In this document: positions 38,095 to 52,080 of the stretch, piece after piece | Layout: every line of letters starts with the position of its first letter | How positions within the stretch are numbered: position 1 is the first letter of the stretch | Notes under the pieces: generated by a model | What the model was told of the DNA's origin: nothing | Database searches by the model: none | What the model saw: only the letters and a program-made list of their open reading frames with translations | Assembly (NCBI GenBank): GCA_002011235.1 | Contig: MTMO01000003.1 | Coordinates: 1-64,000 of the forward strand | DNA from: Archaeoglobus sp. JdFR-27 | Lineage (GTDB): Archaea; Halobacteriota; Archaeoglobi; Archaeoglobales; Archaeoglobaceae | Direction of reading: 5' to 3' | DNA length: 64,000 nt | Position numbers and translations under genes: made by a program

Positions 38095-38156
38095 GAATGT
38101 TAAAAAATAAAAAATAAAAATTAAAAAAATTAAAAAATTAAAAAAATTTAATTAAA
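38095..38156. other. A/T low-complexity tract
   Basis: Near-homopolymeric runs of A and T with short AATTAA repeats in the gap between the convergent regulator and oxidoreductase genes. Likely a termination region for one or both. Confidence 0.35.
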
Positions 38157-39332
38157 ACCAGGAACTTCATGCTCTCTCAAGCGATGTAGTCTGCCCAAGA
38201 ATCTGCTTATATCATGCCCTGAAATCATGAGTCTGAATAGCAAACCAGCATTGGATACATCTCCGATGAGGATGTATCCCTTCAACCTTCCTTCCTCGAT
38301 GTAGAACCTCCAATAATTTCCCTTAGCCTGTATCTCTTCATAATCTCCTTTCAGCTCACCTGCAATTACGAAGTGGAAACCGAGCTTTTTCAAGCTGTTG
38401 ATGACGTCAGATCCCTCATATTTAACTTCAAACCCCAGCAAATTTAAAGCGGCAACCTTCCCCTGCCTTACGGCATTCCAGAAATTAGCAAAAATTCTTC
38501 TCTCTCCCGTAATCCTGTTCTTTGTCTCACAGACATCCCCACAGGCGAAGATATTCTCAGCTGAAGTCCTCATAAAGTCATCCACAATTATTCCCTTTCT
38601 CGTTTCAATTTCTCCCCTGCAAAACTCTATGTTTGGGATCATGCCTGTTGCAGCGATAAAAAAATCTCCCTCAAAAACCTCTCCATCTTCAGTTATCACA
38701 GCCCTGCAAATCCCATTACCTTCAAACTCCTTCCCAGGTTTGTTAAAAACGATTTTTACTCCTTTCTCTTCCATTACTCTCTCGATAAAAGCCGACGTTT
38801 TCTTATCGAGTCTATCCGGCATTATGCGATTGGTTGCTTCGATAAGGGTAACGTCAACACCCAGCTCATTTAATATGAGAGCTATCTCGGTTCCTTGGAA
38901 ACCAGCTCCGATGATGATCGCCTTTTTTCCCCTTCCGAGAATTTCTTTAAGTTTCTCCACCTGGGTTATCGATTTAAAGTTGTAGATATTGGGGTAGTTG
39001 AGTCCTTTAAGCGGAGCATACAGCCTGCTTCCTGAGGCTATTATCAACTTCTCATAGGTGTATTCACCCCTGTCAGTATGAATTGTGTTTGATTTAGTTT
39101 CCAGTTTCCTAACGGATTCTCCAACTCTTGCATCCAGTTTTAGCCTTTCAAAAACGTCTTTACCCTTCCAAAAAACATCCTGGGTAGAGGTTTTCAGGTA
39201 AGTTGTGAGGACAGCCGGATTATAGGGGGGAGCTTTTTCAGCGGAAAAAATGGTTATTTCCTCGTCTGTAAGCTTTCTGATTGTCTCCGCTGCCGTGATT
39301 CCTGCTGGTCCAGCACCTATTATAGATATCAT
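38148..39332 (-). CDS. FAD/NAD(P)-dependent oxidoreductase linked to CO dehydrogenase
   Basis: 394 aa. The N-terminal FAD motif ISIIGAGPAGITAAETI and the internal NAD motif KAIIIGAGFQGTEIALIL (about 135-152), then ENIFACGDVCE for the second FAD contact, define the pyridine-nucleotide disulfide oxidoreductase fold without the redox-active CxxxxC pair. It is the nitrite-reductase-like or FNOR type found next to CODH genes in several anaerobes, where it passes electrons from the CooF ferredoxin to NAD(P)+. It starts 6 nt after the cooS stop, so one operon. Confidence 0.9.
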   Translation of the reverse strand: MISIIGAGPAGITAAETIRKLTDEEITIFSAEKAPPYNPAVLTTYLKTSTQDVFWKGKDVFERLKLDARVGESVRKLETKSNTIHTDRGEYTYEKLIIASGSRLYAPLKGLNYPNIYNFKSITQVEKLKEILGRGKKAIIIGAGFQGTEIALILNELGVDVTLIEATNRIMPDRLDKKTSAFIERVMEEKGVKIVFNKPGKEFEGNGICRAVITEDGEVFEGDFFIAATGMIPNIEFCRGEIETRKGIIVDDFMRTSAENIFACGDVCETKNRITGERRIFANFWNAVRQGKVAALNLLGFEVKYEGSDVINSLKKLGFHFVIAGELKGDYEEIQAKGNYWRFYIEEGRLKGYILIGDVSNAGLLFRLMISGHDISRFLGRLHRLREHEVPGFN

Positions 39333-39338
39333 GTTAGC

Positions 39339-41189
39339 TTAAATCCCTAGTTTTCTCCTTTTCTCTTCAATATGTTTCACAATGATGTCTGCAGCCCTCT
39401 CTGCATCCGGTTCAACAACAAACTTCCCTCCTGTTAGGCTTTCAACTTTGTTCGTTAGGACATCAATAACGAATTTGCTTCCAAATATCGGTGGAGGGAC
39501 GCCCAAAACAACCAGCAACCCCGATGCAACGAAGTAAGTGCCTATCGCTATTGCCTTTTCAGAGTACCACTCCATGGCAGCCCCGGCTGCAGGAAGGTCG
39601 CTAATATCAACTCCAATCTCGTTTGCAAGAGCAGCTAAAGCAACAAGGATTCGAGAATTGTCCACGCAAGAGCCGAAATGTAATATCGGCGGGATACCAA
39701 GGGATTCACATACCTCTCTTAATCCATTGCCTGCTAATTTAGCAGCTTCTGGCATTTTTAAGCCAACTTTCGCATCTGCAACTGCAGCGCAGCCCGTATC
39801 CACTACAAGCACGTCATTTTCGATGAGCTTTCTCGCGAGGGTTGTATGGGATTTGTCCTGCGTAACCTTTGGATTGTTGCATCCAACCGAGCCAACAACT
39901 CCCTTTATGCTCCCGCTTTTAATCGCATCTATAAGCGGTTTCAAGCTCCCACCTAAAGCTTTAACAACCGCTTCAACTGAGAAACCGGTCATCAGCTCAA
40001 CCGGTTTTACATCTGGAATCTTTATGAGATCTCTGTTTCTCTGCTTGAACCTCTCGATTGCAAGTTTTACCACTTCAACAGCCTTTTCGTGGGCATTTTC
40101 GGGAGTGAATTCAATATGCATCGCATCCTTGAATTTTGCCTTTGGCGATGTGGTAACCACAGCCGTATGATAGCATTTGGCAACATCAACTATTGCGGGC
40201 ATTATGCACTGGTAGTCAACTACAACAACATCAGCAACACCTGTGCCAATAACCAATTCCTGGATCAGATGATTTCCAGCCATAGGGATCCCTTTTCGCA
40301 TCAATACTTCATTTCCAGTACAGCATAAGCCAGCGAGATTTATCCCCTCTGCTCCTGCTTTCTTGGCCAGTTTAACAAGATCTTCACGCATAGCTGCCTC
40401 AACCACCGCATCGGAAACGAGTGGATTGTGGCCGTGTAGGATTATGTTCACCTCATTCTCCTTCAGCGTTGCAAGGTTTATCGTGGATGTTTTCGGTTCT
40501 GGAGTTCCGAATAAGATATCAGAAACCTCAGTTGCTATCATAGACCCTCCAAATCCGTCACCCAGAGATGTTCTCAGGCATTGAAGCAGTATGTTCGCAG
40601 GCTCATTATCCACACCCATATGAGTGCGATGCATCATTTCAACGACTTCCCTATCGATCCCCCTAGGAATTACACCTAAATTTTCCCATATCTCTATCCT
40701 TTTACGTGGTGCTCTGTTTATTAGCTGAATTCTTTCCTTTTTGGATCCAAAATCTTCAAGCATCGCATCAGCAAGCTCTGAAGCTATCTCTACAATGCTT
40801 TTTTTCGTTGTGTCGATTCCATACTCCTCTGCCAACCTTTTCAGTTTATCTTCATCTTTTATTGTGTAGGCTTTAACCATGCCAGCCTTTGATAATACCT
40901 CTACCAGATCCCTTCCATGATCGCTATGGGATGCTGCTCCACTTGCTACCGCCCTTGCAAGATTTCTTGCAACTATAACATCCGCATCAGCACCACAAAC
41001 TCCTTTCTGTGGCCCTTCACCAAAAGGATCAATTCTACACGGCCCCATTGTACAGTTTCTGCAGCTAAGTCCAAGAGAACAGTATCCACATTGCGGCTCC
41101 TGGTTTTCCAACCTATTCCATACCAACTCAATTCCTACATCATCCAATTTTTTAATAATTCTTAATGCATCTTGGTGGATGGAATGCAT
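39339..41189 (-). CDS. cooS: anaerobic Ni-Fe carbon monoxide dehydrogenase catalytic subunit
   Basis: 616 aa. It oxidises CO to CO2. The B-cluster cysteines Cys43, Cys46, Cys51 and Cys65 are in SCRNCTMGPCR and VCGAD. The C-cluster ligands are seen in order: His of ILHGHNP, Cys of CCTGNEV, Cys of DYQCIMP, Cys of SVGCNNPK, Cys of DTGCAAVAD and Cys of HFGSCVDNSR. The D-cluster reads Cys34-Gly-Tyr-Cys37 rather than the Cx7C of the Carboxydothermus type. No acetyl-CoA synthase gene is adjacent, so this is the CO-oxidising form coupled to CooF and the FAD oxidoreductase. Confidence 0.97.
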   Translation of the reverse strand: MHSIHQDALRIIKKLDDVGIELVWNRLENQEPQCGYCSLGLSCRNCTMGPCRIDPFGEGPQKGVCGADADVIVARNLARAVASGAASHSDHGRDLVEVLSKAGMVKAYTIKDEDKLKRLAEEYGIDTTKKSIVEIASELADAMLEDFGSKKERIQLINRAPRKRIEIWENLGVIPRGIDREVVEMMHRTHMGVDNEPANILLQCLRTSLGDGFGGSMIATEVSDILFGTPEPKTSTINLATLKENEVNIILHGHNPLVSDAVVEAAMREDLVKLAKKAGAEGINLAGLCCTGNEVLMRKGIPMAGNHLIQELVIGTGVADVVVVDYQCIMPAIVDVAKCYHTAVVTTSPKAKFKDAMHIEFTPENAHEKAVEVVKLAIERFKQRNRDLIKIPDVKPVELMTGFSVEAVVKALGGSLKPLIDAIKSGSIKGVVGSVGCNNPKVTQDKSHTTLARKLIENDVLVVDTGCAAVADAKVGLKMPEAAKLAGNGLREVCESLGIPPILHFGSCVDNSRILVALAALANEIGVDISDLPAAGAAMEWYSEKAIAIGTYFVASGLLVVLGVPPPIFGSKFVIDVLTNKVESLTGGKFVVEPDAERAADIIVKHIEEKRRKLGI

Positions 41190-41193
41190 AACA

Positions 41194-41763
41194 TCACCCC
41201 CTCAACTCAAGCCAGATTTTGTAGTTCTCCGGAACCTCTTCCCTTCTCTCAAAAATTGGTGAATAAGTTGATGCGATCCGTTTTTCAGCTTCTTCAATCA
41301 ACTCATTTACATCTCCATATCTCAACGCTCCAACCTTGCAAGCCTCAACACAAGCTGGAATTTCATCTTCTTTCACTCTCTCTATGCATCCATCGCATTT
41401 GTAGCTCACAGGAAGTTTCTCGATTCTTTTCCAATCAATATGGAATCTTACAACTGCGAACGGGCAAACCATTGCACACATACCACAATTTATGCACCTT
41501 TCAACATCCACAAAGACTATCCCTTCCTCTCTTCTTATCGCCGAAGTTGGACAAGCTTCAAGACATGGTGCTGGCTCACAATGTCTGCATTTGCTGGGGA
41601 AAGCATAGTTTTCCTTGGCTGAATACACGTGAATTCTTGGCTTTGGTGGTGTTTCTTCGTAAATCGCATTGAAATTCTTGCTTTGGGAGTGGGCAACAGC
41701 ACACTCAAACATGCACTGCATGCACCCTATACATCTTTCTGGAAAAACAACAACTGACTTCAT
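41194..41763 (-). CDS. cooF: CooF-like ferredoxin with four [4Fe-4S] motifs
   Basis: 189 aa. Cysteine motifs in order: CIGCMQCMFEC (11-21), CRHCEPAPCLEACP (about 59-72), CINCGMCAMVCPF (about 89-101), and CDGC with CVEAC (about 123-142), matching CooF and DmsB/HycB-type electron carriers. It takes electrons from CooS and hands them to a partner, here probably the FAD/NAD oxidoreductase. First gene of the three-gene CO module, 4 nt upstream of cooS. Start codon ATG. No twin-arginine signal, so it is cytoplasmic. Confidence 0.95.
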   Translation of the reverse strand: MKSVVVFPERCIGCMQCMFECAVAHSQSKNFNAIYEETPPKPRIHVYSAKENYAFPSKCRHCEPAPCLEACPTSAIRREEGIVFVDVERCINCGMCAMVCPFAVVRFHIDWKRIEKLPVSYKCDGCIERVKEDEIPACVEACKVGALRYGDVNELIEEAEKRIASTYSPIFERREEVPENYKIWLELRG

Positions 41764-42007: not shown

Positions 42008-43240
42008 TTAGGTTCTGTAACTCCTTGGCATCCCCAAGATATGCTCGGCTATGTAGTTCAAGGCCATTTGTTGCGTTATTGGTGCTAACCTTAGCAGATT
42101 TACCTCCCTCCACCATCTTTCCACATCGTACTCTTTAGCATACCCATATCCTCCAAAGGTTTGCATAGCCCAGTAAACTGCTTTAATTGAATTTTCCACT
42201 GCAACAACCTTTGCCATGTTCGATGCATCTCCCACTTCTTTGAAAGCAGCCTGCATCTGAACTCTTTTTTCCGGATTCATAATATCCTCGATCTTGAATT
42301 TCGTATCGTAGAGCCAGGCAGCCTTCCTCATCATAAGTTCTGCACACTGAAGTGACGCATACGCTTCAGCCAAAGGAAACTGTAAGCCTTGATAACTCCC
42401 GATTGGATCTGCAAAGACCTTTCTCTCCTTTGAATATTCAACAGCCTTGCTTATTGCAAGCCTCGCGCCACCGATAGCCCCGGCAGCAGCGCTCATCCTC
42501 TCCGGATTTAAGACGTCGAGAAGCATGTACCATCCAAGATCCTTCTGGCCAAGAATCGCATCTTCTGGAACTCTCAAATCGCTTATACTTACCTCACATG
42601 TCTTAGAGAAGTTTATACCATGTTTGGGAATAGGATTCCACTTTACGGCCTTGTTTGGGAGATCAACCAAGAAAAGGGTGATTCCTAAGGATTTTTTAGG
42701 AGCTTGATCTATGGGTGTTGTTCTGGTTACGAGTAGCATACCCTTTGCCCTATCTATCCCGCTTATGAAGATCTTGTTTCCATTTATAACGTACTCATCT
42801 CCCTCCTTTCTCGCAAACGTCTGAGTTTTTAATGTGTTTGTTCCTGCATTTGGCTCCGTTAGAGCCATGCAGAATTCAAGCTCACCCTTTGCTATCCCTG
42901 GCAGATACTTTTCCTTCTGCTCTTCATTCCCATATCGAGCGATTGGTAGGCCACCAAATATCTCGGTCAAAACTAGATACCAAACTCCTCCTGCTCCACA
43001 ACCGTTCGCACATAGCTCCTCCATCCCGATAACCATTTCCTGCATTCCGTATCCGGCTCCACCGTATTCCTCTGGAAGCAATAGACCAAGAAAACCCGCA
43101 TCAGCCAAAGCCTTGTAGAACTCCTCAGCAAACTCACCCTTTTCATCCTTTTCTCTCCAGTATTCGGGTGGGAAGTCTTTGGCTACATCTCTGGCTGAAC
43201 TTGCAATCATTTTCTGTTCTTCTGTAAGCTCAAAAACCAT
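42008..43240 (-). CDS. acyl-CoA dehydrogenase of the six-gene acyl-CoA operon
   Basis: 410 aa. FAD-dependent: CMALTEPNAGTNTLKTQ is the signature and WAMQTFGGYGYAKEYDVERW the C-terminal FAD loop. At the position of the MCAD catalytic Glu (EGT) the sequence is RLAPITQQM, with no Glu. Instead Glu in NPERMSAAAGAIGG aligns with the isovaleryl-CoA dehydrogenase-type base, so it probably acts on branched or bulky acyl groups. Last gene of the run from 48133 to 42008, 23 nt after the MaoC gene. It would introduce the double bond that MaoC then hydrates. Confidence 0.9.
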   Translation of the reverse strand: MVFELTEEQKMIASSARDVAKDFPPEYWREKDEKGEFAEEFYKALADAGFLGLLLPEEYGGAGYGMQEMVIGMEELCANGCGAGGVWYLVLTEIFGGLPIARYGNEEQKEKYLPGIAKGELEFCMALTEPNAGTNTLKTQTFARKEGDEYVINGNKIFISGIDRAKGMLLVTRTTPIDQAPKKSLGITLFLVDLPNKAVKWNPIPKHGINFSKTCEVSISDLRVPEDAILGQKDLGWYMLLDVLNPERMSAAAGAIGGARLAISKAVEYSKERKVFADPIGSYQGLQFPLAEAYASLQCAELMMRKAAWLYDTKFKIEDIMNPEKRVQMQAAFKEVGDASNMAKVVAVENSIKAVYWAMQTFGGYGYAKEYDVERWWREVNLLRLAPITQQMALNYIAEHILGMPRSYRT

Positions 43241-43263
43241 TTTATCACCCCATATTTCTCATC

Positions 43264-43707
43264 CTAAGTTTCGCGTTTCTTCACGGCAACCTTCAACTGA
43301 CAGGTTAGCACGACATCCCCTCTTTGATTTACGGTCTTAGCCTCCAACGTGATCACGCCGTAATTGCCCTTGTCTCTAGCTTCAACAACCTTCGCAACAG
43401 CTTTTATCGTGTCCCCAATGAATACAGGATTTGTGAATCTGAGTTTGTCTATCCCATAAAATGCGAGTATCGATTCCTCTATGAAACCCAGCCTCGTGAG
43501 CAAACCAATTGTTATTGAAAAAATAAGGGTGCCATGGGCAATCCTCTTTCCAAAGAAGCTTTTCTTGGCGAACTCTTCATCTGTATGCAATGGATTCCAG
43601 TCACCAGTCAAGCCAGCGAAGTTCACGATGTCCGCCTCGGTAACAGTTCTTCCAGAAGTTTCGAGTCCCATTCCAACCTCGTAATCCTCAAAGTAAAGAC
43701 TCTCCAT
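43264..43707 (-). CDS. MaoC-like (R)-specific enoyl-CoA hydratase
   Basis: 147 aa from the ATG at 43707, which has GGTTGA upstream; the longer frame to 43812 runs into the DUF35 gene. It is a single hot-dog domain. The catalytic motif is NFAGLTGDWNPLHTDEEFAK with Asp and His, followed by GKRIAHGTL. It would hydrate the enoyl-CoA from the dehydrogenase to a 3-hydroxyacyl-CoA. It lies 4 nt after the DUF35 gene and 23 nt before the acyl-CoA dehydrogenase. MaoC proteins commonly associate with DUF35 proteins in such operons. Confidence 0.92.
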   Translation of the reverse strand: MESLYFEDYEVGMGLETSGRTVTEADIVNFAGLTGDWNPLHTDEEFAKKSFFGKRIAHGTLIFSITIGLLTRLGFIEESILAFYGIDKLRFTNPVFIGDTIKAVAKVVEARDKGNYGVITLEAKTVNQRGDVVLTCQLKVAVKKRET

Positions 43708-43711
43708 CTTT

Positions 43712-44167
43712 TCAACCTTCCACGGGCTCAAAGTACAAAATATCCGTGATCTTACCCTCACGCTCCTCCTTCCAGACAGCTCTAACTCTCGCCCCCGGCT
43801 TGAAGGTTTCATGAACCTTCTTCCAGTCGCTGAGATCTATCCCGCCAAGCAAGCAGAGCATGCCTGTATCAGCTCCATCAAGTTTCACTATGCCAGTGGC
43901 ATACGGAGGATCAGGCAAACCGGTGAATTTTATGTAAGTCACGGTAACGGTGACAACCTCCCCCTCATCGCTAACCTCTACCCAGTCTGCCGTATCAACA
44001 AAGCACCTCTCACAGAAGGCCCTCGGTGGAATGAGAACTCTTCCACATTCCGGGCATTTCACACCCATTATTTTCTTATCCTTCAGAGCTTCGAAAAATT
44101 TCGTGCCATGTTCGCCAGCTGAATGAACATATGGAATTTCCCACTTTGTTTCAAACTTCAAAACCAT
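43712..44167 (-). CDS. DUF35 zinc-ribbon/OB-fold acyl-CoA-binding protein
   Basis: 151 aa. A rubredoxin-like zinc ribbon (CPEC about 38-41 and CERC about 52-55) is followed by an OB-fold (about 65-145) with VTVTYIKFTGLPDPPYATGIV. DUF35 proteins bridge thiolase-like partners: they occur with HMG-CoA synthase in archaea, with BbsB in toluene degradation, and with Ltp2 in steroid degradation. Here it sits between the second thiolase-like gene and MaoC, so a complex with the two thiolase homologues is likely. No enzymatic residues of its own. Confidence 0.93.
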   Translation of the reverse strand: MVLKFETKWEIPYVHSAGEHGTKFFEALKDKKIMGVKCPECGRVLIPPRAFCERCFVDTADWVEVSDEGEVVTVTVTYIKFTGLPDPPYATGIVKLDGADTGMLCLLGGIDLSDWKKVHETFKPGARVRAVWKEEREGKITDILYFEPVEG

Positions 44168-44193
44168 TCAACCACCTCCTTTAAGCTTAATTC

Positions 44194-45354
44194 TTATTTA
44201 AGCTTCTTTTTAGAGGAGAGGAGCATCAGCGTATGGAATTGCAATGTTCCTCCCCACGCATGAGCAAGTGATACGTTCACATCGGGAATTTGGTAGCTCG
44301 CCTCTCCCATTATCTGAAGTGCTGCCTCAGCCAATCTAACAAGCCCAGTAGCACCTATTGGATTCGTACATAAAACACCGCCTGACGGATTGGTTGGCAT
44401 ATCTCCATCGGGAAATGTAACACCTTCTCTAGCAAGATCTTTACCTTCTCCCTTTTCTGCAAATCTAAGAGCTTCTAACTCCAACACCTCCTGAATCGTA
44501 AATGGCGAGTAAAGTTCCGCCACATCAATATCTTTCTTTGGATTGTCGACTCCAGCATGTCTGTACAATCTTCTTCCCGCAATAGCCAGAGTGTCCCAGT
44601 AGCTCAAATCTGGCCTATCGCCGGCATAGTAATTATCGCTTATAGTTGTTTCAGCGATAACCCATGCTGGATTGTCCCTTATCTTTTTAGCAACCTCCTC
44701 ACTTGCAAATATCACAGCAACAGCTCCATCGCTCCTAGGACAGCACTCCAGAAGCTTTAGTGGCGAAGATACCATCGGACTGTTTAAAACCTCCTCCACA
44801 CCAATATCGAGCTTTATATGGGCATTGGGATTTTTCAGGGCATTCTTATGATCTTTAACACTCACCCAAGCAAGATCCTCCTCTGTAGTGCCATACTTAT
44901 GCATGTGAACAGTTGCCTGAATTGCTGCAACGCTTATGGCTCCAGCCCCAGAATATCTTTCGAAAATGGGACATACTGCAGTATTAAGCACAGGCTGAGC
45001 ATCAACACACTCTCCAACCCTCTGCGTGCATACCGCCATTGCAATATCAAAGACTCCGCTTGCAACGTGTTCGTAGGCAGCTAAACCAGTGGTCATACCT
45101 GTCGTTCCGCCAGTTGAGATCTTCATGAACGGCTTTCCGATCCCGCCAGAGGTAACATCCCATCTCTCTGGCAGATATATTCCATCGAACGGATCCATCG
45201 TTCCATAGGCTATCGCCTCAATGTCTTTTATCTCGAGATTTGCATGTTCCAAAGCTTTATTCATCGCTTCATATGTCAGCTCGGGATGGGTTTTATCATC
45301 CCTCCTCGTTCTGAACTTAGTCTGACCAACTCCAACAACTGCAACCCTTTTCAT
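44194..45354 (-). CDS. thiolase-like protein B, lacks thiolase catalytic residues
   Basis: 386 aa of thiolase (SCP2/lipid-transfer) fold. The usual nucleophilic Cys region reads STGGTTG (residues 80-86), so the cysteine is Gly or Thr. The GHPxGATG histidine motif reads TNPIGATG (330-337), with Asn instead of His. A Cys (329) precedes it and a His lies in AHAWGG near 365. It therefore cannot be a classical Claisen thiolase; related cysteine-less homologues in steroid degradation act as retro-aldolases. Paired with thiolase-like A, 9 nt upstream, and followed by DUF35 after 26 nt. Confidence 0.88.
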   Translation of the reverse strand: MKRVAVVGVGQTKFRTRRDDKTHPELTYEAMNKALEHANLEIKDIEAIAYGTMDPFDGIYLPERWDVTSGGIGKPFMKISTGGTTGMTTGLAAYEHVASGVFDIAMAVCTQRVGECVDAQPVLNTAVCPIFERYSGAGAISVAAIQATVHMHKYGTTEEDLAWVSVKDHKNALKNPNAHIKLDIGVEEVLNSPMVSSPLKLLECCPRSDGAVAVIFASEEVAKKIRDNPAWVIAETTISDNYYAGDRPDLSYWDTLAIAGRRLYRHAGVDNPKKDIDVAELYSPFTIQEVLELEALRFAEKGEGKDLAREGVTFPDGDMPTNPSGGVLCTNPIGATGLVRLAEAALQIMGEASYQIPDVNVSLAHAWGGTLQFHTLMLLSSKKKLK

Positions 45355-45363
45355 CTTATCACC

Positions 45364-46446
45364 TCAGCTTGAAAGAATAGCTATGGCTGCGTTCTGACCG
45401 ATGCCTGTCATCGCATGAGCGATGCCCTTTTCGATTTCTCCCTCCCTAATCTGAAGAGCAAGGTTTGCCAGAAGAAAGGCACCGGTGGAACCATATGCAT
45501 TGGTACAAAGCGCGCCCCCTGATTTATTTACTGGAAAGTCAGAGTCGATCAGCTCCTTACCCTTACCATATTCGGCAAATCCCAAAGCTTCGAGAATCAT
45601 GAAGTGATAATCGCTAGTCAGATCCATAATTTCGGCAGCTTCGATATCCGAAGGTTTCAAGTTCGCCATCCCGTATGCCATCTCAGCAGCCTTAGCGGTT
45701 GCAAATAGCTTGCTAAGATCCCTTGTTCCCATAAAATAGTTGTCATATGTCCATCCCAAACCTTTAATCCATATAGGATCTGGGTTGATTCTCTTAGCTG
45801 TGGTTTCCTCTGCCAAAATGAAGGCAACGCACCCATCGCACCATTGGGCAATTTCAGGCCTTCTTAGTGGATAGACTGCCATATCAGAATTGATTACCTC
45901 TTCCACACTTATGCTCTCTTTTAAGAAGGAATACTCGTTTTTTAGAGCATTTTTCCTGTCCTTAACCACAACCTTTGCCGTGTCTTCTTCGCTAACGTTA
46001 AAGGAGTTCCTGTAAACATAGCTCTGCATCGCATAACCCATTTGCAAAGAAAGTTTCAGATCCCTATGAAAAAGAGGATCTAAGCTCTGGAGTTCAACCA
46101 ACTCGACAGGGGTTTCAGAGCTATGCCCAAAGCCTAAAACTATCGCAACATCGGAAAGCCCGCTTTTCACCCTCATGTATGCTAAAGGTAAGGCAAAGGC
46201 TGCGTCTTCAGAAACTCTTATTTCATGACGAAGATAGCCACCGGCTGCTGGAGCTACGTACATGTTGGAAATCGTCCTTCCAACACCGAGATTGTCATAT
46301 CCACCAAGGATGAAACTGTCAATCTCTCTTCTCTCAATTTCTGCATCTTCCATTGCCTTTTTTGCAGCAACATAGGCCACGTTGTAAAAAGGCTCGTCAT
46401 GAATTTTGAAATCGGTAATTCCTATCCCCACAATTCCAACCTTCAT
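45364..46446 (-). CDS. thiolase-like protein A, lacks thiolase catalytic residues
   Basis: 360 aa, thiolase fold, shorter than its neighbour. The nucleophile loop is VSEDAAFA (about 78-85), without Cys. The C-terminal motif reads GGALCTNAYGSTG (about 310-322), where GHPxGATG should be, with Asn-Ala instead of His-Pro. GIAHAMTGIG near 340 holds a His. Loss of the catalytic set in both copies suggests a heteromer in which one chain is mainly structural. It starts 31 nt after the acyl-CoA ligase and ends 9 nt before thiolase-like B. The reaction is not known. Confidence 0.85.
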   Translation of the reverse strand: MKVGIVGIGITDFKIHDEPFYNVAYVAAKKAMEDAEIERREIDSFILGGYDNLGVGRTISNMYVAPAAGGYLRHEIRVSEDAAFALPLAYMRVKSGLSDVAIVLGFGHSSETPVELVELQSLDPLFHRDLKLSLQMGYAMQSYVYRNSFNVSEEDTAKVVVKDRKNALKNEYSFLKESISVEEVINSDMAVYPLRRPEIAQWCDGCVAFILAEETTAKRINPDPIWIKGLGWTYDNYFMGTRDLSKLFATAKAAEMAYGMANLKPSDIEAAEIMDLTSDYHFMILEALGFAEYGKGKELIDSDFPVNKSGGALCTNAYGSTGAFLLANLALQIREGEIEKGIAHAMTGIGQNAAIAILSS

Positions 46447-46477
46447 TTTACCACCTGGTTTTTACCTTAAAACAAAT

Positions 46478-48133
46478 TTATCGTGCACTAAACCTCTTTC
46501 TCCAGTCAGGAATCTCTTTATCTCTATCCCAACCGTGATCTTCTCTTTCCTTCTCCCTTTCCTTTAGCTCCCACTTCTTTACTCTTCCAGTAGGGGTGTA
46601 TGGAAGCATTTGAACAAGTTCGATGTATCGAGGTATTTTGAAGTAAGCTACCTTTCCCGCCATGTATTCTATAATCTCCTCCGGCTTAAGTTCCGCTTTC
46701 GGCAGAATAAATGCCTTTATCTCTTCTCCTCTTTTTGGATCCGCAACTGGGATTACGGCTACATCCTGAACTTTCGGGTGGCTCTTGATTACATCTTCAA
46801 TCTCCCAACTTGCAATGTTCTCACCACTCCGCCTAACTATGAACTTCTTTCTGTCAACAAAGTATAGGTAGCCTTTTTCATCCATTTTCACGAAATCTCC
46901 GCTGTAAAGCCATCCATCCTTAACGATTTCCGCAGTTTTCTCAGGAGCCTTGTAATAGCCGAGCATCTGAGCGGGATTTTTCCTTATAAGCTCTCCAGTT
47001 TTCCCCCTTTCAACTTCATTCCCTCCTTCATCGACTACCTTCGCCTCATGACCGAGATCTGGGAAAACAGGAACGCCGAAGCTCCCCATTTTCTTATATT
47101 CTCCTGGCGGATTCAAACAGGGCAAAGGATCCTCCGTCATGCTGTAGCCTTCTAACACCTCAACTCTGAATCTTTCCTCGAACCCTTTCCATATCTCCTT
47201 CGGCATACCTCCAATGATGACGTATTTTGCTGGGTTATCCTTTTCCTCTTCCACTGGAGGTAAAGAGTAGAGTATGTTCGCGAGGGAGCCAAGAAGGTTG
47301 AAGTGCGTGCATTCAAAGTTGCTTATGTCCTGCCAGAAGTTGGAAACACTAAAAAGACTTCTCAAGGTAATGATCCCACCAGCAAACATCATTCCAAGAC
47401 TGGAATATATTTGCGCGTTGATGTGGAAAAGAGGCAAGCCCGTATAATCGTTTGCAGTTTCATCAACCATCCAGAGAGTTATTGCTTTTGCAGATAAAAC
47501 ATAGGACTTATTTGAGAGAATCGCCCCCTTCGGCAATCCCGTTGTTCCTGAGGTGTAAATAATTGCCATGGGATCTTCTGGTTTTATGTCAGCCTCAGGG
47601 TCAGTTGATCTGCCACCAAGGGAATCCATCGTTGGATACTCCTTGCTATCCCCCCTTACAATGATGTTTTTCAGGTTAACAAGATCACCTTTTATCGCCT
47701 CAACAATGGGCAGCAGATCTTCCTCCACAAAGATCGTCGCAGACTCGCTGTTCCCGATTACATGCTTCGCATCAAGCTCCCTATAGAACCAGTTCACCGG
47801 CACCTCTATAGCTCCTATTTTCGAGCATGCGTAGATCGCTTTCAAATAATCCAGAGAGTTTCTTAGAAACAGGGCAACTCTGTCTCCCTTTTCCACTCCA
47901 ATCTCCAGCAACGCATTGGCTATTCTGCTCGCTTCTTTGTTAAGCTCCTCGTATGACATTCTCTCTCCTGTATCAGCGAAAATAGCGTACGTTTTATCTC
48001 CTCTGATCTTCGCCGAAGATTCAACCGCCTGCTTTACCGTTTCAACTTTTGCCATGTCTTCGGGCAACCTCTTCACAGCCCAAGAGTAATTAGGCCAACC
48101 TTTGAGTTCGCCTTCCCCAATTACAAAAGCCAT
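46478..48133 (-). CDS. acyl-CoA ligase (AMP-forming), CaiC-like
   Basis: 551 aa from the ATG at 48133, chosen because GGTGG lies 4-5 nt upstream; a GTG/ATG at 48148 is also in frame. It activates a carboxylic acid with ATP and CoA. The P-loop is IIYTSGTTGLPKGA (about 200-213), the adenylate motif GYSMTEDPLP follows, then YSGDFVKMDEKG and the C-terminal Lys of TPTGRVKKWELK. The closest family by pattern is the crotonobetaine/carnitine-CoA ligase or long-chain type; the substrate is unknown. First gene of the six-gene acyl-CoA operon and therefore likely to load its substrate. A RHH regulator lies 150 nt upstream. Confidence 0.92.
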   Translation of the reverse strand: MAFVIGEGELKGWPNYSWAVKRLPEDMAKVETVKQAVESSAKIRGDKTYAIFADTGERMSYEELNKEASRIANALLEIGVEKGDRVALFLRNSLDYLKAIYACSKIGAIEVPVNWFYRELDAKHVIGNSESATIFVEEDLLPIVEAIKGDLVNLKNIIVRGDSKEYPTMDSLGGRSTDPEADIKPEDPMAIIYTSGTTGLPKGAILSNKSYVLSAKAITLWMVDETANDYTGLPLFHINAQIYSSLGMMFAGGIITLRSLFSVSNFWQDISNFECTHFNLLGSLANILYSLPPVEEEKDNPAKYVIIGGMPKEIWKGFEERFRVEVLEGYSMTEDPLPCLNPPGEYKKMGSFGVPVFPDLGHEAKVVDEGGNEVERGKTGELIRKNPAQMLGYYKAPEKTAEIVKDGWLYSGDFVKMDEKGYLYFVDRKKFIVRRSGENIASWEIEDVIKSHPKVQDVAVIPVADPKRGEEIKAFILPKAELKPEEIIEYMAGKVAYFKIPRYIELVQMLPYTPTGRVKKWELKEREKEREDHGWDRDKEIPDWRKRFSAR

Positions 48134-48280: not shown

Positions 48281-48844
48281 TCAGTCCGAATATCTCCTAT
48301 AGAATTTCAAAACAAACCCATTAGTAGATATACTCGTCAAAACATCCCATTTTTCCGAATAGTACTTTCTGTAGATCATAAGAAGATGTTCTGAAAGGAA
48401 CTCGCTTACCTCTCTCCTCCTCATTGTATGCTCACAGAAAAACTGAATCCATCCCTGGCCCTTCGTCACCTCTATATAATCTGCTCTGTTCAGAATCTTC
48501 CATCCCTTTCTCACTGTTTCTAGAAATTCCTCAAGCTCGATTTCGACAAAAGGCTTTTTTAAAAACCACTCTACAGCCGTCTCCATGCTGCTTTCATCAA
48601 CTGCCCTTTTCGGATCCCCACAAACAAGATACATATACTGGCTTTTCCCACACCCAGTGAAATCCAGCTCCCTTATTAACTTGATCAGGAGCAAATCGTC
48701 TTCATTTATCAGAGACGATTCGCTATCAAGGAGTTTTAAAGCGACTTCAATAACATGGTTATAGCCTCTGAATTTATCCTTGTGTTTCTCAAGAATCCTA
48801 AAAGCTTCATCACTTAATGTTGTCTGGATTCTCTTCTTAGCCAT
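48281..48844 (-). CDS. ribbon-helix-helix regulator with C-terminal domain
   Basis: 187 aa. The N-terminus AKKRIQTTLSDEAFRILEKH plus GYNHVIEVALKLLD (about 26-40) is a RHH/MetJ-like DNA-binding unit. Residues about 55-187 form a domain I do not recognise, with ELDFTGCGKSQYMYLVCG and WIQFFCEHTMRRREVSEFL, probably ligand sensing. It lies upstream of and in the same direction as the six-gene acyl-CoA operon, 147 nt from the ligase start, and divergent from the OFA transporter (48986). It may control both, which would tie an uptake system to the degradation operon. Confidence 0.68.
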   Translation of the reverse strand: MAKKRIQTTLSDEAFRILEKHKDKFRGYNHVIEVALKLLDSESSLINEDDLLLIKLIRELDFTGCGKSQYMYLVCGDPKRAVDESSMETAVEWFLKKPFVEIELEEFLETVRKGWKILNRADYIEVTKGQGWIQFFCEHTMRRREVSEFLSEHLLMIYRKYYSEKWDVLTSISTNGFVLKFYRRYSD

Positions 48845-48985: not shown

Positions 48986-50200
48986 ATGGTCAATCGCTGG
49001 GTTTATCCGCTGATGGGATTGGTTATCTCCGCAATGCTTGGAGGTATTTATGCTTTCAGCCTCTACTACTCTCCCCTTCAGCAAGCATACAACCTAAATG
49101 TTGTTTCGCCTCTTGCTCTGGCTTTTTCGATTATAACCGTTAGCTACTCAATTTTCATCATTCCTGCAGGAGTTATCTACGACAGACTTGGGCCGAAAAT
49201 ACCCGTAGTTGTGGGAGCTTTTATGATATTAACAGGATACGTTCTTGGATGGTACATGAAAAACTTTGAAGATTGGGGAAAAGCAGCCTTATTGTACTAC
49301 ATTGGACTTGGTTTTTTTCCAGGATTGGGGTTAGCATTAGTAGATGCCGTCCCAAGACCCCTTGCAGCGAAATGGTTCCCTGATAGAACAGGAACCGCTG
49401 TCGGAACGGTTGCTTTTGGGTTTGGTATAGGTGCGGCAGTAGTTACCCCAATAATAAAATATTTCCTGGACCAAGGGGTTTTCTTTACATTCCTATACAT
49501 GGGGTTGATTTATTTCGCAGTCATATTTCTCCTTGGAATTTTTCTGAGGGAGCCACCGGATGATTTTCGAAAGTTAACTCTAATAAATCCCGAAATTGAG
49601 GAAGATGAAGACTACAATCTTATACAGGCACTAAAAGATAAAAGATTTCATATCTTGTGGTTCTCATTTGCTTTCTCATCCTTTGCAGGTTTGATGGTGA
49701 TAGGAAATGCCGTTCCGATACTGGAGGAGGCTATTTCTCCCCAAGATCTAAAACTAATCATTCCAGCCTTCCTGATTGCCACATCCTTTTGCAATGCCGG
49801 CGGTAGGATCTTTTGGGGTAACCTACTCGACAGAATAGGGCCTTGGAGGGCGATGGAGGTGAATTTCGTTGTAACCATGGTAGCATTGATGACCCTTTCT
49901 TTCAGTTATTCGAACCGTTACCTCGTGATTCCTCTTGGTGGAGTGATATATGCTAACTATGGTGGCTTACTCGCCCTCTTTCCATCTGCAGTTGCTTTAT
50001 TTTTCGGTAAAAAGTATCTTGGAAGGATTTATGGTGCAGTTTTCACCTCTTGGGGGGTTGCAGGTTTGATGGGTGCAGTAGGTGGTGGATTCATCAGAGA
50101 TCTAACCGGTAGCTACTTCCAAGCGTTTTATGTGGCTGTGATTTTCTCAATGCTCGCTCTATTTCTCGTTTACAGAGGGTCTAAAATTCAAAGGGTATAA
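48986..50200 (+). CDS. OFA-type major facilitator transporter (monocarboxylate/oxalate-formate)
   Basis: 404 aa, twelve predicted membrane segments. MGLVISAMLGGIYAFSLYYS at the start, AGVIYDRLGPKIPVVVGA (the MFS loop between helices 2 and 3), and AVGTVAFGFGIGAAVVTPI identify the OFA (oxalate/formate antiporter) family, which moves small monocarboxylates. It is divergent from the RHH regulator, and its left flank faces the acyl-CoA operon, so import of the substrate of that pathway is plausible. The predicted central loop is at EPPDDFRKLTLINPE. Substrate not established. Confidence 0.9.
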   Translation: MVNRWVYPLMGLVISAMLGGIYAFSLYYSPLQQAYNLNVVSPLALAFSIITVSYSIFIIPAGVIYDRLGPKIPVVVGAFMILTGYVLGWYMKNFEDWGKAALLYYIGLGFFPGLGLALVDAVPRPLAAKWFPDRTGTAVGTVAFGFGIGAAVVTPIIKYFLDQGVFFTFLYMGLIYFAVIFLLGIFLREPPDDFRKLTLINPEIEEDEDYNLIQALKDKRFHILWFSFAFSSFAGLMVIGNAVPILEEAISPQDLKLIIPAFLIATSFCNAGGRIFWGNLLDRIGPWRAMEVNFVVTMVALMTLSFSYSNRYLVIPLGGVIYANYGGLLALFPSAVALFFGKKYLGRIYGAVFTSWGVAGLMGAVGGGFIRDLTGSYFQAFYVAVIFSMLALFLVYRGSKIQRV

Positions 50201-50250
50201 AATTCAAAAGAAGTCAGGAGTTTCGAGTGAGGAGTAAATGGCAAAGTATT

Positions 50251-52080
50251 CTAACCATACATCTCCTCTATCAGTCCACTGTAATTTTTCAGAATTACAT
50301 GGGGTCTTTTTTTAAGAGTAGGGGTTAATTCTCCTTTTTCAATGCTGAACGCTTCTGATATCAGCCTGAATTTTTTCACTTGCTCATAGATGGCCAGATT
50401 TTGATTTGCTGAATTTACGATGCTATCATAGAACTCGATGACCTTTGGATAATGAACTAATCCCACATCAACACCTACAACCTCCATTTCTCCGGAAATT
50501 CCCTTAATTTTCTTTGTTTCTTCTCTGTCATATTCAATTCCCTCTCTCTCAGCGAAATCCAGCAGCAAATTGAAATTGGGTTGTATGAGAGCAACGATGT
50601 ATGGTCTGCCATCCCCAATGACGATCGCATCTGAGACGTAAGGGTTTCTCAAAAGCTCCTCCTCAATTGGAATCGGAGAAACATTCTTGCCAGTATCAAG
50701 AACTATTATGTGCTTTTTTCTCCCCTTGAAAATTAGATATCCATCATCATCAAATTCTCCCAAATCCCCGGAATACAGCCAGCCATTCTCAATTACTTCA
50801 GCAGTTTTTTCCGGTTTATTCCAGTAGCCTTTCATAACATTGTCTCCTCTGACTAGAATCTCCCCATCAGGAGCTATCATTTCCTCAGTCCCTGGAATTG
50901 GTGGGCCTACCGTTCCGGGTTTGAATCTGCCTAACGGGTTGAGATTCGATGGGCCGGCAGTTTCAGTCATTCCATAGCCCTCAATGACCGGAATCCCCAT
51001 TCCGTTGAACATGTATGCCAGATCCTTATGAAGTTCGGCAGCGGAAGAGCAGATGAATCTGATTCTCTGAAGCCCAAGCGCGTTTCTGATTTTAGTGAAT
51101 ACAAGAGCATCGGCAACTTTTCTCTTAAATCCAAGCCAGAAACCAAAGTTCTGTCCAGCGCTCATCCTCTTGCCACAATCTATGGCAACATCTCTGGCCC
51201 AGTAAAAGATCCTCTTCTTGATCCCACCTTTTCTTTCAACCTCCTCTACAATCCCTTTGTTCATTCTTTCGAGGATCCTAGGAACCGCTACAAATGCAAC
51301 AGGCCTTATTTCTCTTAAAGTTTCAACAAATCTTGAAGGAGACGTGAATACAGCATTCGCTCCTTTAAGAACTCCCGCAAAGAAAACTATCCGCTGAAAA
51401 ACGTGGCTTAGAGGTAGATAGCATATGTATTCTTCGCCGGGATAGAAGGGGGTCACAGACATAACTGATATCGCATTGAAAACCCAGTTCCAGTGGGTAA
51501 GCATCGCTCCCTTCGGTTCTCCTGTCGTGCCTGACGTATACACAAGAGAGGCAACATCTTCTGGCAAGGAAAACACTATCTGATTCTCCTCAAAGGTTTG
51601 GCCCTTAATAAGATCGAAAATCGTTTTTTCTCCGGTTTTCTCAATCGATAAAATTTCTGCATCTATATTTTCGAGATTTTCAAGCATCTCCTTGTTTTCA
51701 ACCACAACCAACTTGGCTCCGCTATCCCTGATTATGTACTCAACCAGATTTTTGTTCAGAAGTGAATGTACAGTTGCCACGATACCTCCGGCCATTAGTG
51801 TGGCATAATCACATAAAGCCCATTCGTATCGGGTGTTACTGTATATCGCAACCCTATCTCCTTTCTCAATCCCCAATTCTTTAAAAGCGTTGGCCAACTT
51901 TCCAGCAGTTTTCAGAAATTCAGAGTATGAGTAGGATTTAGTTTCATCTCCTTCATACCAAGAGATCGCAGGAGTGTCTGGAAACTTCTTAGCCGTATTC
52001 AACAACATTTGATTGAGATCTATCCTACTATCCCTATCCTCCAATTTATCAACCTTAAGTTCTGCCCCCTTCACAATCAT
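50251..52080 (-). CDS. fadD: long-chain fatty acyl-CoA synthetase
   Basis: 609 aa. AMP-forming ligase of the FACS (ACSL-like) group: SLVYTSGTTGEPKGAMLTH (about 193-211), GYGMTETAGPSNLNPLGRF, and LYSGDLGEFDDDGYLIFKGR with the hinge before KHIIVLDTGKNVSP, followed by a long C-terminal domain ending LTPTLKKRP. The extra ~50 residues near 300-340 and YSNTRYEWALCDYATLMAGG are typical of the long-chain subgroup. It activates fatty acids for beta-oxidation. Convergent with the OFA transporter, separated by 50 nt. Confidence 0.93.
   Translation of the reverse strand: MIVKGAELKVDKLEDRDSRIDLNQMLLNTAKKFPDTPAISWYEGDETKSYSYSEFLKTAGKLANAFKELGIEKGDRVAIYSNTRYEWALCDYATLMAGGIVATVHSLLNKNLVEYIIRDSGAKLVVVENKEMLENLENIDAEILSIEKTGEKTIFDLIKGQTFEENQIVFSLPEDVASLVYTSGTTGEPKGAMLTHWNWVFNAISVMSVTPFYPGEEYICYLPLSHVFQRIVFFAGVLKGANAVFTSPSRFVETLREIRPVAFVAVPRILERMNKGIVEEVERKGGIKKRIFYWARDVAIDCGKRMSAGQNFGFWLGFKRKVADALVFTKIRNALGLQRIRFICSSAAELHKDLAYMFNGMGIPVIEGYGMTETAGPSNLNPLGRFKPGTVGPPIPGTEEMIAPDGEILVRGDNVMKGYWNKPEKTAEVIENGWLYSGDLGEFDDDGYLIFKGRKKHIIVLDTGKNVSPIPIEEELLRNPYVSDAIVIGDGRPYIVALIQPNFNLLLDFAEREGIEYDREETKKIKGISGEMEVVGVDVGLVHYPKVIEFYDSIVNSANQNLAIYEQVKKFRLISEAFSIEKGELTPTLKKRPHVILKNYSGLIEEMYG

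Follow-up and report, generated by a model that had tools for sequence, protein, structure and literature searches.

An archaeal operon with two cysteine-less thiolase homologues: a candidate retro-aldol module of the Ltp3/Ltp4 type in Archaeoglobus

The 64,000-nucleotide stretch analysed here (the window; positions 1 to 64,000 of contig MTMO01000003.1 from Archaeoglobus sp. JdFR-27) carries at 42008-48133 a six-gene operon in which two adjacent thiolase-fold proteins, thiolase-A and thiolase-B, have lost their catalytic residues. With moderate confidence, we read the operon as an acyl-CoA degradation module that would end in retro-aldol, not thiolytic, cleavage by thiolase-A, thiolase-B and a DUF35 protein. 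All six genes are intact, lie on the minus strand, start with ATG and contain no internal stops; in the order ligase, thiolase-A, thiolase-B, DUF35 protein, MaoC hydratase and acyl-CoA dehydrogenase they are separated by 31, 9, 26, 4 and 23 nt. The first-pass annotation had described a one-strand, six-gene operon of these families with gaps of 4-31 nt, and the coordinates and the Pfam and NCBIfam matches agree with it throughout. The host genome comprises 2.36 Mb in 67 contigs, and its closest named relatives, judged by thiolase-B identity, are Archaeoglobus metagenome-assembled genomes at 95, 90 and 86%.

Catalytic residues and phylogeny of the pair

Both thiolase-fold proteins (thiolase-A, 360 aa, 45364-46446; thiolase-B, 386 aa, 44194-45354, minus strand) were aligned with six intact SCP2-type thiolases of the same genome and with solved structures. 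The motifs quoted in the first-pass annotation (KISTGGTTG and LCTNPIGATG in thiolase-B; VSEDAAFA and LCTNAYGSTG in thiolase-A) are present, and the alignment columns confirm its claim that both the nucleophilic Cys and the His of the GHP motif are missing from both proteins. A third loss, that of the HDCF motif, had been overlooked. In thiolase-B the Cys is replaced by Gly83 (codon 45106-45108), HDCF by YSPF, whose Tyr282 (44509-44511) aligns with the HDCF His as well as with Tyr294 of TcLtp2 and Tyr302 of CtSal, and the GHP His by Asn331 (44362-44364). Thiolase-A has Ala82 at the Cys column, within a shortened nucleophile loop (VSEDA) that keeps a conserved Asp81, together with MDLT for HDCF and Asn at the GHP His. 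Since the Cys and the GHP His are absent from thiolase-A, thiolase-B and every orthologue examined, neither protein can be a thiolase by the Cys/His mechanism, and on these alignments thiolysis by that known route is excluded for both.

A thiolase that uses a displaced cysteine seems very improbable. In both proteins of this subtype a Cys does lie two residues ahead of the Asn at the GHP His site (Cys329 in thiolase-B; the Cys of LCTN in thiolase-A), and Cys329 is conserved within the subtype. However, the segment differs from the thiolase nucleophile loop, and wider relatives (type-2 homologues and those from Lokiarchaeota, actinobacteria and some phylum-level archaea) have Ser, Thr or Gly at the position, which makes a moved nucleophile unlikely. 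A check for a displaced but intact Cys-His set found none, as no His is left to activate Cys329.

The residues that replaced the thiolase set in thiolase-B are themselves conserved. None of Gly83, Tyr282, Pro284 and Asn331 varies among 19 archaeal homologues of 38-95% identity, and the signature of Cys to Gly, HDCF His to Tyr and GHP His to Asn is kept in every archaeal orthologue checked except those of haloarchaea. A broader alignment of 118 thiolase-fold sequences found Gly, Tyr-x-Pro and Asn constant in Archaeoglobi, Lokiarchaeota (with YEPT, YDPF and YAPF as further forms of the YSPF site) and the two phylum-level relatives (G082, G189), as well as in most actinobacterial and proteobacterial homologues. 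Thirteen other genomes have the same genes with the same residues, which are thus due neither to chance nor to a sequencing artefact. From these residues, thiolase-B is probably the catalytic aldol-lyase subunit, and thiolase-A probably a non-catalytic or modulating partner, although its Asp81 might have a role in a site of thiolase-A itself or in a shared one. The first-pass annotation had treated the two proteins alike; because thiolase-A is without the Tyr, they are not equivalent.

Structure prediction places both proteins in the thiolase fold (AF2; thiolase-A, pLDDT 87, TM 0.93 to 6et9; thiolase-B, pLDDT 84, TM 0.83 to Ltp2, 6ok1), with chains folded singly from alignments built without plasmid-derived rows. 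Both models match 6et9, 7yvy and 6hsp; archaeal and SCP2 thiolases are the closest structures, and Ltp2 and Sal also score high. In a maximum-likelihood tree, thiolase-A groups with actinobacterial PRK07937 proteins (support 100/99) and thiolase-B with PRK08313 proteins (support 100/94), families that we take to be Ltp4 and Ltp3, respectively, from the protein lengths and gene order in M. tuberculosis (Rv3520c-Rv3523). Both clades are separate from the Cys thiolases, and Ltp2 falls with 4u4e in a further clade that lies closer to the Cys thiolases and excludes thiolase-A and thiolase-B. The reference pairs in the tree, from Nocardia and Nonomuraea, pass both curated cut-offs, and the Nocardia locus runs in the order LLM oxidoreductase, DUF35, Ltp4, Ltp3, as does Rv3520c-Rv3523 of M. 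tuberculosis.

Gene neighbourhood and alternative readings

Orthologues of thiolase-A (E < 1e-90) occur in 14 of the 59 Archaeoglobi genomes, across several genera. The block of pair, DUF35, MaoC and dehydrogenase is kept across relatives and the ligase changes. A DUF35 gene lies near every one of 44 thiolase-B-type genes and an acyl-CoA dehydrogenase near 27 of them; a 3-hydroxyacyl-CoA dehydrogenase lies near two, neither in Archaeoglobi. The operon itself is without a 3-hydroxyacyl-CoA dehydrogenase, as had been claimed, and none was found within 6 kb at any of the 33 Archaeoglobi thiolase-B loci, compared with five of the seven loci of non-mevalonate Cys thiolases of the genus, a difference (Fisher p about 3e-5) that is descriptive since the loci are related and not independent.

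Conventional β-oxidation, in which thiolase-A and thiolase-B would have degenerated into subunits with a scaffold or regulatory role, leaving a dehydrogenase and a Cys thiolase from elsewhere in the genome to finish the pathway, is an unlikely alternative. The genome encodes seven strong 3-hydroxyacyl-CoA dehydrogenases outside the operon and eight Cys-bearing thiolases, the module is found only in genomes that also have such dehydrogenases, and PhlABC-type complexes contain inactive partners bridged by DUF35. Against it stand the complete lack of a linked dehydrogenase in the Archaeoglobi loci and the invariance of Gly, Tyr, Pro and Asn in thiolase-B over so wide a range of identity, which argues for a selected new activity. 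We had considered the argument, suggested by a published report (PMC8322695), that a dehydrogenase-free genome keeps the pair, and rejected it, as all pair-bearing genomes have 3-hydroxyacyl-CoA dehydrogenases. That report states that A. sulfaticallidus lacks the enzyme, whereas genome G013, tentatively assigned to that species, gives five strong matches; either G013 comes from a different species or the statement in the paper is in error.

Other Cys-free chemistry on carbon-carbon bonds strikes us as quite unlikely, whether this were cleavage of a hydrolytic or retro-Claisen kind or a reaction through an enolate, for example decarboxylation or a synthetic aldol-type condensation. Tyr282 and Asn331 fall at the His and Asn sites that stabilise the enolate in ketosynthases such as KAS III, links to IpdAB-like CoA-transferase homologues exist in type-2 clusters, and links to BKACE in some relatives. 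However, the window operon contains no IpdAB, BKACE or carboxylase gene, its combination of ligase, dehydrogenase and hydratase fits degradation to a 3-hydroxyacyl-CoA, and the closest characterised relatives are lyases.

Several observations weigh against retro-aldol cleavage by an Ltp3/Ltp4-type pair. The curated cut-offs were missed, with 328.5 against 514 bits for PRK08313 (the best NCBIfam match of thiolase-B) and 151 against 419 bits for PRK07937 (thiolase-A), and the evidence for Ltp3/Ltp4 is itself genetic. Tyr282 is Phe in the haloarchaeal homologues and in one plasmid-encoded Rhodococcus homologue, so the Tyr is not universal across the wider family, and Tyr344 of Ltp2 and Cys304 of Sal have no clear counterpart in thiolase-B. 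Every genome with the module has 3-hydroxyacyl-CoA dehydrogenases elsewhere, which could act in trans. An enzyme for handling an aldehyde or ketone product was not found in the operon, and the complete route proposed in the first-pass annotation is to that extent not shown.

The operon dehydrogenase (410 aa, 42008-43240, minus strand) offers a hint as to the substrate. Its register was checked against the medium-chain enzyme MCAD (3mdd): it has Pro at the position of MCAD Glu376, and its predicted catalytic Glu (NPER) aligns with Thr255. That position is the base site of the long-chain and isovaleryl-CoA dehydrogenases (LCAD and IVD), which accept branched chains. Eight of the 14 acyl-CoA dehydrogenases compared in the genome have the usual Glu at position 376, and Glu at the Thr255 position with none at 376 occurs in the dehydrogenases of both Cys-less clusters (the second is described below) and in one other. 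The LCAD/IVD-type base in both clusters hints at branched substrates and, together with the absence of a linked 3-hydroxyacyl-CoA dehydrogenase, would favour a substrate with a tertiary 3-hydroxy group, as in the Ltp2 reaction, where a tertiary 3-hydroxy substrate, a 17-hydroxy steroid, is converted to the 17-ketone.

Proposed pathway, related clusters and a mevalonate-cluster thiolase

We infer catalysis, catabolic direction, complex formation, substrate and product of the module from sequence. The AMP-forming ligase (551 aa, 46478-48133, minus strand; PF00501, 240 bits, and PF13193) probably serves in substrate activation and would convert the acid to its acyl-CoA; the A. fulgidus-like lineage has an unrelated ligase in its place, so the specificity probably varies. 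The acyl-CoA dehydrogenase would then form the 2-enoyl-CoA, which the MaoC enoyl-CoA hydratase (147 aa, 43264-43707, minus strand; PF01575, 115 bits), whose hydratase motif DxNPxH is intact (GDWNPLH), would hydrate to the 3-hydroxyacyl-CoA. The MaoC protein of the A. fulgidus-like genomes was considered as the crystallised 1q6w protein and proved to be only a relative. Finally, thiolase-B, thiolase-A and the DUF35 protein (151 aa, 43712-44167, minus strand; zinc ribbon CPEC...CERC and OB fold, PF01796 and PF12172, the ChsH2 domains), probably their complex partner, would act as an archaeal Ltp3/Ltp4-type aldol-lyase releasing acetyl-CoA (or propionyl-CoA) and a ketone or aldehyde. A heterodimer and an arrangement like that of PhlABC, where DUF35 bridges different dimers of the thiolase fold, are equally plausible.

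In the proposed mechanism, Tyr282 would take the proton from the β-hydroxyl, which would sit against Gly83 at the former Cys site, and the oxyanion pocket, which thiolase-B retains, would hold the enolate. The proton for the enolate would come from the GGVLCTN segment, given by Cys329 or by a water held by Asn331, because the general acid of Ltp2, Tyr344, is on this segment; thiolase-A would most likely be a non-catalytic partner. The likeliest substrate would be a β-branched or bulky acid giving a tertiary-alcohol 3-hydroxy intermediate that no dehydrogenase can oxidise. More tentatively, and with considerable doubt, the module may be an archaeal retro-aldol branch of β-oxidation for 3-methyl-branched (isoprenoid) or cyclic acids, splitting a tertiary 3-hydroxyacyl-CoA into acetyl-CoA and a ketone and thereby bypassing the β-methyl block without α-oxidation or carboxylation, which, if true, would provide an anaerobic archaeal route for archaeal lipid chains or petroleum isoprenoid acids. 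Steroid degradation was considered and found unsupported, as neither the operon nor the genes directly beside it showed anything specific to steroids.

A protein of 187 aa encoded 147 nt upstream of the operon (48281-48844, minus strand) belongs to no known family, with no match in Pfam or NCBIfam profile searches. Its homologues adjoin type-1 and type-3 Cys-less pairs in at least eight further genomes, and its N-terminus resembles a ribbon-helix-helix DNA-binding region, so that it may be a new transcription regulator. Beyond it, one flank of the operon (48986-52080) carries an SfMCT-like transporter of the major facilitator superfamily and a second ligase, and the other flank (38148-41763) a carbon-monoxide-dehydrogenase-like gene with Fe-S and flavin partners; neither was recovered as a conserved part of the operon.

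A second, paralogous cluster, on contig C28 of the host genome (L033:6325-12976), encodes an IpdAB-like CoA-transferase, thiolase-A2 (DDRF), thiolase-B2 (VGGGTG, YDPF, GNP), a dehydrogenase and two DUF35 proteins; several relatives also have an ECH hydratase gene downstream. The CoA-transferase pair belongs to the steroid-ring-cleaving family. Pairs of the C28 type are widespread in Archaeoglobi and are present in Lokiarchaeota (L042:656-4103). A third type of Cys-less pair, with DUF35 on both sides, is found in A. fulgidus-like genomes (L117:8616-11980, L119, L120, L121, L122) and is often adjoined by the same putative regulator (185 aa). Two Lokiarchaeal homologues (L041, L042) adjoin aldehyde:ferredoxin oxidoreductase-like, Fe-alcohol-dehydrogenase-like and BKACE-like genes, with DUF35, ECH and ligase genes also nearby; by similarity and sequence inspection, from which these neighbours were named, the context of the Lokiarchaeal pair is aldehyde-handling.

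A further thiolase of the same genome has lost both catalytic cysteines. In the mevalonate cluster (contig C16 of G000, L034:7121-8284; orthologues L146-L157 and L160-L162), the thiolase between HMG-CoA (3-hydroxy-3-methylglutaryl-CoA) synthase and DUF35 carries Asp in place of the nucleophilic Cys, and its HDCF motif reads HDSF, in all 16 Archaeoglobaceae genomes examined; in the order- and class-level outgroups (L158, L159) the HMG-CoA-synthase-linked thiolase keeps the Cys and HDCF. Each of the 11 small genomes of the family that were examined has exactly one other thiolase, with its Cys intact. It thus seems from these sequences that the complex-bound acetoacetyl-CoA thiolase died or changed function family-wide and that another thiolase took over, so that where this family obtains the acetoacetyl-CoA for its isoprenoid lipids becomes a testable question. 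A literature search on this Cys loss found nothing relevant.

Comparison with known aldolases

The Ltp3/Ltp4 kind of protein is already known genetically in actinobacteria. A full-text literature search turned up no archaeal retro-aldol pathway, and a search on isoprenoid-acid degradation in Archaeoglobus gave nothing on point; to our knowledge, a conserved Ltp3/Ltp4-type operon that includes a ligase, a hydratase and an LCAD/IVD-type dehydrogenase of its own, and its duplication, have been undescribed in anaerobic archaea. The operon is annotated as ordinary fatty-acid breakdown, and it may allow archaea to use acids that normal β-oxidation cannot degrade. The β-oxidation inventory of Geoglobus ahangari lists GAH_00625/00626 and GAH_01327/01328 among eight "thiolases" (PMC4600277); these are two adjacent pairs whose arrangement matches both modules, and if the match is right, half of the listed enzymes cannot be thiolases by the known mechanism. 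Were the module an aldol-lyase, retro-aldol side-chain cleavage would not be a speciality of aerobic steroid-degrading bacteria but a general tool that extends to anaerobic hyperthermophiles and Lokiarchaeota, and archaeal oxidation of β-branched acids would become testable with three recombinant proteins.

Among characterised or solved proteins, the archaeal SCP2-type thiolase-fold protein ST0096 of Sulfolobus tokodaii (4yzo) also lacks the nucleophilic Cys but, unlike thiolase-A and thiolase-B, retains the HD and GHP motifs, and it is without the Tyr. DUF35-adjacent thiolases among the best structural matches share the fold but have Cys and His intact. In the aldolases of steroid and bile-acid degradation, Tyr294 of TcLtp2 and Tyr302 of CtSal are the catalytic base and Tyr344 (Ltp2) and Cys304 (Sal) the general acids, both essential (PMC12329534). 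The bile-acid aldolase Sal-Shy(DUF35) (9myr) shares with thiolase-B the Gly at the Cys position and the catalytic Tyr, but the essential Cys304 of its YDCY is Pro284 in thiolase-B, and Sal is a single protein whose DUF35 is fused to MaoC.

The steroid aldolase Ltp2-ChsH2(DUF35) was the model proposed in the first-pass annotation. The Gly and Tyr of thiolase-B recur in Ltp2 (6ok1) and 4u4e, a DUF35 partner is present, and a dehydrogenase and a MaoC hydratase likewise act before the aldolase. The structure prediction and alignment, run as had been suggested, bear out the thiolase fold and this Gly/Tyr pair. For the alignment, a Mycobacterium branderi thiolase was discarded as an Ltp2 reference, being a normal Cys thiolase, and a Simplicispira YDHF protein and 6ok1 were used. 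Thiolase-B has YSPF where Ltp2 has YDHF (Asp and His not kept) and GGVLCTNPIG for the Tyr344 segment GGQLGEAYIHG, without the Tyr; Ltp2 is a single thiolase-fold protein with DUF35 fused to the hydratase, whereas the archaeal proteins form a pair with a separate DUF35. The retro-aldol proposal thus keeps the Gly/Tyr pair, the adjacent DUF35 and the unlinked dehydrogenase in its favour, but its closest relative in the tree is the Ltp3/Ltp4 pair.

Reviews describe Ltp3-Ltp4 as a heteromeric aldol-lyase acting on the C24-branched side chain of sterols, which it cleaves in hydrated form (PMC6678751; also PMC6593523). As in the archaeal operon, the Rhodococcus rhodochrous Ltp3/Ltp4 genes are adjacent and Cys-less, a short (Ltp4-like) gene being followed by a long (Ltp3-like) one beside DUF35; Ltp3-type subunits carry Gly, Tyr and Asn as thiolase-B does, and thiolase-B shares 39% identity with a PRK08313 (Ltp3) protein. 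Unlike its bacterial counterpart, the archaeal module comes from an anaerobic hyperthermophile lineage, has a single separate DUF35, and embeds the pair with a MaoC hydratase, a ligase and an LCAD/IVD-type dehydrogenase.

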